A stretch of 64,000 nt of DNA from positions 3,410,001 through 3,474,000 of the forward strand of contig NZ_CP019699.1 of NCBI RefSeq assembly GCF_002005165.1, written 5' to 3'. The position numbers were made by a program, and so were the translations under genes. The stretch comes from Novibacillus thermophilus (GTDB taxonomy: Bacteria; Bacillota; Bacilli; Thermoactinomycetales; Novibacillaceae). A model generated the notes under the pieces. The model did no database searches. It was not told where the DNA came from and was given only the letters and a program-made list of their open reading frames with translations. Shown one piece after another: positions 45,615 to 51,278 of the stretch; position 1 is the first letter of the stretch, and the number at the start of each line of letters is the position of its first letter.

Positions 45615-46478
45615 GTGGAAAGGAAATTTTTCCAGAAGCCATCAATTTACGTCGGTGAAGTGAGTGTGAATGTAACGAACTTAGAAAGATCCCTTCATTT
45701 TTATAAAGATTTCATGGGGTTTCGCGTATTAAAGCAAACCAATCGGAAAGCCATTCTGACAGCAGATGGAAAGACAGCTTTACTCACATTAGAGCAACCG
45801 GAGGATGTCGTACCGAAAGCGGGGAGAACGACGGGATTGTATCACTTTGCAGTGTTACTGCCTGAAAGAAAAGAGCTTGCGACATTTCTCAAACATCTTA
45901 TTCAAACGACGGGACATCAGATCCGATTAGGCGCATCCGATCATTATGTGAGTGAAGCGCTGTATTTTGACGATCCCGATGGCAATGGCATTGAGGTGGC
46001 CCGGGACCGCCCGTCCTCCGAATGGAATTGGCATGGTGAAAAGGTTGAAATGGCCACCGTTGCCCTTGATGCAGACGATTTGCTTTCAGAGGCCGATGAA
46101 GAATGGACAGGCATGCCGGAGGAGACGTTAATCGGACATATTCACTTACATGTTTCTGACCTGGAGACAACCGAACATTTTTACGTCAATGGCTTGGGAT
46201 TTAACATTGTGACAAGATACCCCGGGGCTTTATTTGCTTCCACCAACGGCTATCATCACCATCTCGGTCTCAACGTCTGGAATGGCGTCGGGGCACCGAA
46301 ACCGGCTGAAAACAGCGTCGGGTTAAATTGGTTCACGTTGGTGTTCCCTGATGAGGAAAGGAGAAGCCAAACGGTCGATCAGTTACACCGTATCGGCATG
46401 AGTGTGAAGAAGGAGGATGACGACTACGTCACAGAAGATCCTTCAGGGAACAGAATACGGCTTAAAGTGGAGAGGTGA
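45615..46478 (+). CDS. VOC-family protein (glyoxalase/extradiol dioxygenase-like, CatE type)
   Basis: A 287-residue protein from a GTG behind AAAGGAG. It is a tandem repeat of the vicinal-oxygen-chelate fold: first half VGEVSVNVTNLERSLHFYKDF to LYFDDPDGNGIEVARD, second half IGHIHLHVSDLETTEHFYV to VTEDPSGNRIRLKVE. Metal ligands are seen as His in YHFAVLL, Glu in GIEVARD, and His in GHIHLHV. This architecture fits Bacillus CatE/YfiE-type catechol 2,3-dioxygenases, but the substrate is unproven. Its tail overlaps the convergent nucleotidyltransferase gene by 17 bp. Confidence 0.9.
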   Translation: MERKFFQKPSIYVGEVSVNVTNLERSLHFYKDFMGFRVLKQTNRKAILTADGKTALLTLEQPEDVVPKAGRTTGLYHFAVLLPERKELATFLKHLIQTTGHQIRLGASDHYVSEALYFDDPDGNGIEVARDRPSSEWNWHGEKVEMATVALDADDLLSEADEEWTGMPEETLIGHIHLHVSDLETTEHFYVNGLGFNIVTRYPGALFASTNGYHHHLGLNVWNGVGAPKPAENSVGLNWFTLVFPDEERRSQTVDQLHRIGMSVKKEDDDYVTEDPSGNRIRLKVER

Positions 46479-46764
46479 TTGTTCCTTTGACACGATCCAT
46501 TGTTATCGGAATGTCTTTTCCAGTATCGATAATCTCTTGAACCAATCCTGTTGGCTCCATGTATTCTTTCGCGGTAAAGGCAATTGGTTCCAGATCCACA
46601 TCGTAGTCCATTGCAGTCAACAATAAAAAAGCCGTCCCTTCCACACGACCCATTTTTTCAAAATAATCGGAGAATATGGCCAGATCCATATCACTATCTT
46701 TATCAAACGTGCCTTTCGCATAAGAACCAAATAAAATCGCCTTTTTAATAGGAAAGCACCACAC
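46462..46764 (-). CDS. MNT-type nucleotidyltransferase domain protein, probably cut at the N-terminus
   Basis: About 100 residues. The nucleotidyltransferase motif is AILFGSYAKGTFDKDSDMDL with the two catalytic Asp. A GTG start at 46764 gives MWCFPIKKAILFGS; the 20–30 residues that normally precede the glycine-serine motif are absent and a stop lies nine codons upstream. Such small enzymes usually partner an HEPN toxin (MNT–HEPN antitoxin by AMPylation), but no HEPN gene is adjacent. It is probably a remnant left by a recombination event next to dusB. Confidence 0.7.
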   Translation of the reverse strand: MWCFPIKKAILFGSYAKGTFDKDSDMDLAIFSDYFEKMGRVEGTAFLLLTAMDYDVDLEPIAFTAKEYMEPTGLVQEIIDTGKDIPITMDRVKGTITSPL

Positions 46765-49534: not shown

Positions 49535-50821
49535 TTAGAGATCTATTGCAGAAGGAAAATCTTTATACGCATCAATTCCTTGAGAAAAACCAAGAGATTC
49601 ATCGCATTTTCTAATAAATTGTAAAACAGTATCTTCTACTAGTTTGTACGAATGTTCCTCTATCGGATCAAAACCATGAGCAAGAAAACTTCTATTTCTG
49701 ATCTCAACAATATTTTTAATCCTTTCTTTCCACTCTTTCCAAGCAGCAGATATAGGGTGTCCCAATATATCTAGAAGCTCGTAAGTATCGACCAGTCCTA
49801 ATTTGATTCTCCCCTTATTGTCCTTAAACTTACTGTAATCATCGTGGTAGTTTTCCGGAATTTTGTCTAGTTTTATATCAGAAGATAACATTCTCTCTTT
49901 ACTAGTCATGAGAGAAAATTGAGCATACATCTCTACTGCGCGATAAATCCGGGCCGTAGCATCGTCGTATAGACCTCGCCTACCTTTTCTCATGGCATTG
50001 TATATCACATCATAGACAAGCAAAAATCCAGGGCCTGGTGGCCATTTTTTGTTATCAGGAGACCACTTTTTAATAAATTCTTTATAATTAGCCAGCTTTT
50101 TTACCGTTTCGTTGTAGCCTGATATGTGTGGATCGTGCTTGTAGAGATCAAAATATTGTACAGCACCATGGTAATCAAATCGATCCCAGGCTTGAAACCC
50201 TTTCGTTAAATAATAATACTTGTTCAACTCGTCCTCATGTTCATCTACAAAACCATACTGTTGCAATTGATCCAATGTTTGTAGAGCAGCAGTATAATTA
50301 TTCTTATTAAAATTTTCCTTCCAGACATTCAGTCCGCGCCTAATAAACGCCTTATTGACTGGAATCCGCTTGCTTTTTTCCATCCCGTCTTTAACCCGAA
50401 TCAAGTCTTGCCGCACGCCGGTAACAACATTTAGCTTACACTCGGGGTGTTCAATTCCTGCGGCTCCTAAACCAGCTACCATTGAAACCGTGCCACCTGT
50501 ATAGTCGACAATAACTTCATGACCTTCTTCAACATATTTTTCAATATATTGAAGAGCCTTTTCATACGTGTCATAAGGATCGTCGGTATCGACGGGAACA
50601 ATCAAATATTGATTCTCAGTTAAGTTCGTCTGCTTGACTATGCTCTCCCGATGCTTACCTGTCTCCCCAACTTCCCCTTCTCCATCAATCATCGTGCAAC
50701 TGCCACGATGATTGATGGTTGGAGCTGAACAGAAAAAAATAACATAATCCGGTTCATTATTTTGGATAGACGTGACAATCGGCCTGTCACTACCACCTAC
50801 CGTTGACAACAAAACCCTCAT
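49535..50821 (-). CDS. CARF–HEPN protein, Cas02710 (TIGR02710) family
   Basis: About 428 residues from the ATG at 50821, six bases behind GGAGGTG. The N-terminal CARF (Rossmann) domain opens VLLSTVGGSDRPIVTSI and has the ligand loop IVDYTGGTVSMVAGLGAA. CARF domains bind cyclic oligoadenylates made by type III CRISPR complexes. A linker of helices follows, then a C-terminal HEPN-like RNase domain with YDDATARIYRAVEMYAQF and the motif RNRSFLAHGF (R380…H387 counted from the upstream ATG at 50836). So it is built like a ligand-switched ribonuclease. No cas gene or CRISPR repeat is in the window, so it is an orphan here. Confidence 0.82.
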   Translation of the reverse strand: MRVLLSTVGGSDRPIVTSIQNNEPDYVIFFCSAPTINHRGSCTMIDGEGEVGETGKHRESIVKQTNLTENQYLIVPVDTDDPYDTYEKALQYIEKYVEEGHEVIVDYTGGTVSMVAGLGAAGIEHPECKLNVVTGVRQDLIRVKDGMEKSKRIPVNKAFIRRGLNVWKENFNKNNYTAALQTLDQLQQYGFVDEHEDELNKYYYLTKGFQAWDRFDYHGAVQYFDLYKHDPHISGYNETVKKLANYKEFIKKWSPDNKKWPPGPGFLLVYDVIYNAMRKGRRGLYDDATARIYRAVEMYAQFSLMTSKERMLSSDIKLDKIPENYHDDYSKFKDNKGRIKLGLVDTYELLDILGHPISAAWKEWKERIKNIVEIRNRSFLAHGFDPIEEHSYKLVEDTVLQFIRKCDESLGFSQGIDAYKDFPSAIDL

Positions 50822-50930
50822 TTTTTCCACCTCCACGGAATGTAGTCATTTTTCTAGGGAGTACCACCGTCTCGATGGTGATTTCCGGTGAATCCGGTTC
50901 TTCGTAAGGGGCCGAAACCCTGTAAATCCC

Positions 50931-51196
50931 TTAACCTCTTCTGTTCTTGTAGGACACGCCTTTATCGATATTATCGTAACGCATCGCCGCCGGATAAATG
51001 ATGAGGCGCACCCGATCCTACGGATAGTAGTGCTTCAGCAGGACATGGTAATTTTCCCGATATCGTCCAGCACGTCATCTTCTCTCCAACTGAGACTGTC
51101 AATGGCGATCCAGTGATCAGGTCTAAATCCGATAAACTCTAGTCCGTCAGCTCCAGGGCAGACATGTTCTTCGTCCGGTTCAGTAGTACCTTGCAT
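50931..51196 (-). pseudogene. Decayed small gene upstream of the CARF–HEPN gene
   Basis: On the minus strand an ATG at 51196 follows a very strong ribosome site (GGAGGTGGGGGGAGG). The frame gives 53 residues, including FIGFRPDHWIAIDSLSWRED, and stops at 51035. In the next frame the protein-like text goes on: ENYHVLLKHYYP, a TAG, then DRVRLIIYPAAMRYDN and IDKGVSYKNRRG to a stop at 50931. One missing G near 51052 and one nonsense codon explain the breaks. The whole would be about 88 residues. I do not recognise the family. It is co-oriented with the CARF gene, 110 bp away. Confidence 0.5.
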
Positions 51197-51278
51197 CCTC
51201 CCCCCACCTCCTCCCGTTGAATAAGGACGCCCCCCGTGCGGTCCGGTCGATGATGGGCTCCTTTATGTGCTGTTGTGC

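Follow-up and report, generated by a model that had tools for sequence, protein, structure and literature searches.

In Novibacillus thermophilus, an intact gene for a Csx1-type CARF-HEPN ribonuclease lies about 1.41 Mb away from the single type III locus that we found in the genome, and its product has a valine where its family has the lysine that binds cA4. We consider, with a probability of roughly 0.6, that the gene is a horizontally acquired Csx1-type effector which was stranded away from the type III locus and became uncoupled from cA4 after the change from lysine to valine. A CARF domain is often taken as a sign that a type III effector is cOA-gated, and the family of a protein is not sufficient to name its activator. 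In a genome that still carries a GGDD Cas10, the gene offers a test case for the decoupling of CARF-HEPN RNases of this group from cA4, or for their retuning.

The stretch of DNA analysed, termed the window, comprises 64,000 bases (C1:3410001-3474000) of the single 3,629,225-base contig NZ_CP019699.1. An intact open reading frame was confirmed at 49535-50821 of the window (minus strand), encoding 428 amino acids from the ATG at 50821. The frame is open for 433 codons, with neither stop nor frameshift, from a GTG at 50836 (49535-50836, minus strand); judging from the sequence GGAGGTG just 5' of it, the ATG is the likelier start. Residue numbers below refer to the 433-residue frame, and numbering from the ATG is lower by 5.

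The protein matched TIGR02710 (NCBIfam) over residues 19-410 with 184.9 bits (cut-off 83.9), the HEPN family PF09670 with 101.1 bits (cut-off 27; 49613-50032, minus strand), the linker domain PF22205 (Csm6_6H) with 41.4 bits (cut-off 27.6; 50102-50320, minus strand), and PADLOC CARF1--CARF_HEPN with 429.6 bits. An AlphaFold2 model built from 61 sequences (60 of the 80 loci described below and the window protein) had a mean pLDDT of 92.5 and a pTM of 0.84. Its top matches among solved structures were entries of Thermus thermophilus Csm6 (TtCsm6/TTHB152; PDB 5fsh, 8jbb, 8jbc, and 8jh1), which align over CARF, linker, and HEPN at an identity of only 17-18% and are led by 8jh1_A, Csm6 with cA4 (Z 22.2, rmsd 4.7, 375 residues aligned). 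The CARF part of the model matched CARF structures, for example 8t65_B with Z 16.0 over residues 6-162; from such matches over residues 4 to about 164, the CARF domain was placed at 50342-50821 (minus strand), its end at about residue 165 being approximate. The HEPN motif RNRSFLAHG (R380, N381, and H387; 49673-49699, minus strand) was intact. A TIGR02710 score above the cut-off, an R-X4-6-H HEPN site, and an N-terminal CARF Rossmann-like domain were thus all found, and the gene product is an intact Csx1-type (TIGR02710) CARF-HEPN protein by family, fold, and HEPN site. The CARF-HEPN identity and the TIGR02710 family given in the original prediction were confirmed by these profiles, and the predicted structures of the CARF and HEPN domains agreed with them.

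Relatives of the protein cleave RNA with their HEPN domain once cA4 occupies the CARF pocket. CARF domains often carry the signature [DN]X[ST]XXX[RK] after strand 4 (PMC4012209), and this signature, with its cOA-binding lysine, was absent from the window protein. Its motif reads DYTGGTV (TGGTVSM), with valine where TGGT-K-[ST]M has lysine. The residue is Val117 (Val112 from the ATG), encoded by GTT at 50486-50488 (minus strand). In an alignment of 84 proteins, from which L028 (a duplicate of L021) and L084 and L089 (frames shorter than 330 amino acids) were omitted, 83 had lysine in this column and the window protein alone had valine. One of the two patterns used to retrieve the loci required lysine or valine here; the other was independent of the lysine and matched 46 of the 77 aligned loci, all 46 with lysine. 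In the phylum sample, lysine was likewise read by eye in all 20 other genomes over the TIGR02710 cut-off. The relatives encode it by AAG (42) or AAA (35), and all three bases differ from GTT, so a single base-call error cannot account for the valine.

The column corresponds to K94 of TTHB144 from T. thermophilus HB8 and to K137 of TtCsm6. TTHB144, a TIGR02710 protein with the same CARF-HEPN architecture and R/H HEPN site (25.8% identity to the window protein), was described as a cA4-activated, self-limiting RNase, and its K94A mutant as RNase-inactive with cA4 (PMC6599890). For TtCsm6, the K137A mutant was reported no longer to bind or cleave cA4 and to have lost its RNase activity, and in the TtCsm6 structure K137, T59, and R172 stabilize the cyclic phosphate of the ligand (PMC10897365). 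The published mutants are alanine substitutions in proteins of approximately 17-27% identity, whereas the residue here is valine, known from one genome of one strain. The original prediction had taken a cyclic oligoadenylate as the activator and missed the valine; as a lysine needed by the two relatives in these reports (PMC6599890, PMC10897365) is replaced, that premise is weakened. The other residues of the ligand pocket, S16, T113, G115, and R142, were retained, and two further changes, S120V and L11S, were found near the pocket motifs.

CARF families naturally without the lysine or arginine have been described, namely RV2818 and RtcR (PMC4012209). Hence, the absence of this residue alone does not make a protein ligand-blind. 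We take RV2818 to be the Csm6 of M. tuberculosis. Among Csm6-like relatives below the TIGR02710 cut-off, four (L017, L019, L134, and L135) had SSGTPQM, with proline for lysine, and proline also replaced lysine in L138; motif alignment of L136 yielded no aligned motif. The four are presumably cA6-type Csm6 proteins, and their SSGTPQM strand-4 motif was absent from the window protein. As CARF proteins that are more remote do not all have the lysine, our claim is confined to the TIGR02710/Csx1 group. A search of the open-access literature found no paper on a TIGR02710-type protein without the lysine.

The neighbors of the gene encode a wecB-type UDP-GlcNAc 2-epimerase and a PHP-domain protein. 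Its GC content was 39.4% versus 53% in the window, and its GC3 was 0.36 versus 0.55-0.67 in three neighboring genes; this base composition suggests horizontal acquisition. Between the gene and the PHP-domain gene lie degenerate reading frames (50846-51262, minus strand; for example, GADGLEFIGFRPDHWIAIDSLSWREDD), a possible gene remnant. They had no Pfam match, and a comparison with the fetched loci returned self-matches and one 18-residue match at chance level, with no relative. A search for insertion scars gave short repeats only, imperfect or hairpin-like. When 20 kb each of two relatives (G008 and G018) were compared with the window, the PHP-domain gene alone was in common, so an empty site could not be read. 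As possible carriers, phages and plasmids were both rejected: no relative was found in viral contigs or phages, and the 15 plasmid records obtained were all below 60% identity.

Profile searches of the whole genome for Cas10, RAMP, and Cas1 proteins gave no match inside the window, and a scan of the window for 20-mers repeated at a spacing of 45-95 bases detected no array. The description of the gene as an orphan therefore holds within the window, but a CRISPR-free genome was rejected. The sole type III locus found lies at approximately C1:2042428-2048874, on the same contig and by arithmetic about 1.41 Mb from the gene. It is of type III-B, with cmr1, cmr2/Cas10, cmr3, cmr4, cmr5, and cmr6 each over the NCBIfam cut-off, and from its sequence the Cas10 retains YAGGDD, the GGDD motif. 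Type I genes adjoin it: cas6, cas4, cas3, and I-B type cas1 each exceeded the respective cut-off, and for cas7 and cas5 the general Cas7/Cas5 cut-offs were passed but not the I-B ones. Two arrays, with approximately 30 and 36 copies of a common 20-mer, are located there.

Directly 5' of cmr1 is a gene for a CARF-RelE effector (PADLOC CARF_RelE, 453 bits; L008:7227-8450, C1:2041227-2042450), an architecture described as that of the cA4-activated Cami1 (PMC11229360). This CARF effector of the same genome differs from the window protein in its effector domain, in its place in the type III-B locus, and in a lysine kept in its PIGGYK motif. It occupies the position, directly 5' of cmr1, that is held by a CARF-HEPN gene in the sister genome described below. 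This gene order suggests an exchange of effectors between related type III-B loci. The only PF09670 match in the whole genome was the window gene.

A close relative was present in two of the 42 genomes of the order sample, the window genome included. The other is Kroppenstedtia guangzhouensis (G007; NZ_BMEX01000001.1; L021/L028), whose protein is 47% identical and, unlike the window protein, keeps the lysine and is encoded directly 5' of cmr1-6. In a tree of 61 proteins, the two were sisters with a support of 100/98. Eight of the 398 genomes of the class sample matched TIGR02710 with an E value no higher than 1e-5 (five over the cut-off); all eight also had a match to the Cas10 palm that exceeded its cut-off, compared with 88 of 398 overall (Fisher p 4.4e-6). 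In seven of them, from tables read by eye, Cas10 was less than 10 kb away on the same contig, and the exception was the window genome. The phylum sample had 28 matching genomes among 398 at E 1e-10, and Cas10 was found in 23 of the other 27: at less than 15 kb in 16, at 39 kb in one, and on another contig in six, with none in four.

A single-protein search of genome contigs confirmed no relative; an alignment search gave 437, and we retained the best 80 as loci. Among these best 80, cas10 was detected with iterated profiles in the fetched stretch of 58 and any type III gene in 61; cas10 was present in 22 of the 24 loci whose flanks extended 9 kb or more on each side. The remaining 19 of the 80 lacked a type III gene, and among eight chosen loci without nearby cas10, Cas10 was found elsewhere in five genomes and not in three, for which genome completeness was not given. 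Since family members away from Cas10 thus occur elsewhere, a position in trans is not remarkable alone; what is remarkable is that it coincides with the loss of the sensor residue. A cA4-activated Csx1 effector would be expected within or next to a type III locus. TTHB144 has its K94 and is located within its own type III locus, with cas10 at a distance of 4 kb, whereas the window protein has valine and the nearest Cas10 found is that of the distant locus.

We propose that a CARF dimer without the lysine would no longer bind cA4, or would no longer be switched on by it, and that the window RNase would thereby be uncoupled from the resident Cmr complex. The Cami1-like CARF-RelE effector would then perform the cA4-triggered RNA cleavage for this complex. 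The window protein itself would work without cA4 gating, either with a low basal HEPN activity or with another trigger. We rank the absence of cA4 gating as most likely, followed by residual cA4 gating in trans and then by a new ligand. More tentatively, the gene may represent a CRISPR ancillary RNase that has moved out of CRISPR, having lost the lysine with the remainder of the protein under constraint and now responding to another small molecule or to none, as a stand-alone stress or defense RNase.

Residual cA4 gating in trans appears unlikely to us. The distant Cmr complex would make diffusible cA4, and the valine would be tolerated, with R142 and motif I holding the ligand. According to the original prediction, a distantly encoded type III system might employ the protein, and in cmr1-6 with its GGDD Cas10 this idea gains a concrete candidate; the presence of Cas10 in all eight class genomes with a TIGR02710 match is also consistent with it. 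Furthermore, in-trans use of effectors has been proposed for effector-less loci, and the joint occurrence of Csx1 and Cami1 in type III loci was put at 54 counts (PMC11229360). However, nearly all members of the group have the lysine that is lost here, two proteins depend on it for their activity, and the resident locus has an effector of its own, unlike the effector-less loci for which the proposal was made in that paper (PMC11229360).

General decay is not the explanation, because 39 of 40 near-invariant positions (conserved to 95% or more among the other proteins), the HEPN site included, were kept and the lysine was the lone departure; besides alignment drop-outs, TTHB152 and L072 were omitted from this count. 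The change from lysine to valine needs at least two base changes. In view of both, the loss of the lysine probably took place in a protein that was otherwise being maintained. A simple neutral model, which ignores multi-base mutations and was made after the pattern was seen, gave over eight divergences a joint chance of at most about 1e-5 for keeping the 39 residues and for the codon becoming one for valine. In the same table, the chance of keeping the 39 with the lysine lost to any residue was up to about 1%, which is not improbable for a short period of neutral drift; the argument for maintenance rests on the multi-step change to valine, as loss of the lysine to any residue is far less rare. 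At clade-conserved sites, the window protein had 38 unshared departures and the Kroppenstedtia sister 14 (p 0.0009); the HEPN domain held most of the window total (22, versus 7 in the sister), and the tree branches were 0.57 and 0.36, respectively. We read these sequence comparisons, which bear on maintenance only indirectly, as a protein maintained under altered constraint rather than as a dead gene, although the faster rate is also compatible with a partly decaying gene.

A protein retuned to a ligand other than cA4, whether a different cyclic oligoadenylate or a nucleotide of unrelated kind, and acting as a stand-alone stress or defense RNase, seems less probable still. The 39 retained residues and a sensor codon changed at every base are in line with it, as are S120V and L11S near the pocket and the precedents of RV2818 and the SSGTPQM proteins. 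Yet the remainder of the motif (TGGT.SM) is still of the cA4 type, no conserved partner gene was seen, and the case is one genome only. Another cyclase, which the original prediction had also considered, was unsupported in the one family searched besides Cas10: the best SMODS (CD-NTase) match in the genome scored 15.2 bits (cut-off 26.5). A CD-NTase in the genome, as would be expected for a CBASS or other CD-NTase-linked effector, was not found with this one family. Lastly, a dying gene whose function was recently lost and which is free of selection is very improbable: its faster evolution, mostly in the HEPN domain, and the degenerate frames directly 5' would fit, but it has 433 codons without stop or frameshift, 39 of 40 near-invariant residues, and the low neutral joint chance given above against it.

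Three minor observations were made beside these results. A 45% relative in Pelotomaculum sp. DTU098 (L029; LFSA01000116.1) had approximately 10 kb on both sides without a type III gene, with only a cas1 at 8 kb; its genome gave no Cas10 match, and its near neighbor in the tree, L030, had cas10 at 6.3 kb. In the window, a lone minimal nucleotidyltransferase (46462-46764, minus strand; PF18765 and PF01909 over cut-off) is separated from the CARF-HEPN gene by two genes and is flanked by dihydrouridine-synthase-like and glyoxalase-like genes, as read by eye from their translations. A truncated, distant CARF-HEPN-like frame on a 3505-base contig (L133/L141; G731:C465) reads DLSGGVVPSM, without the lysine, and adjoins a dxs-like gene, also read by eye from its translation; the frame may represent a further stand-alone protein of the wider group that has no lysine at this position.
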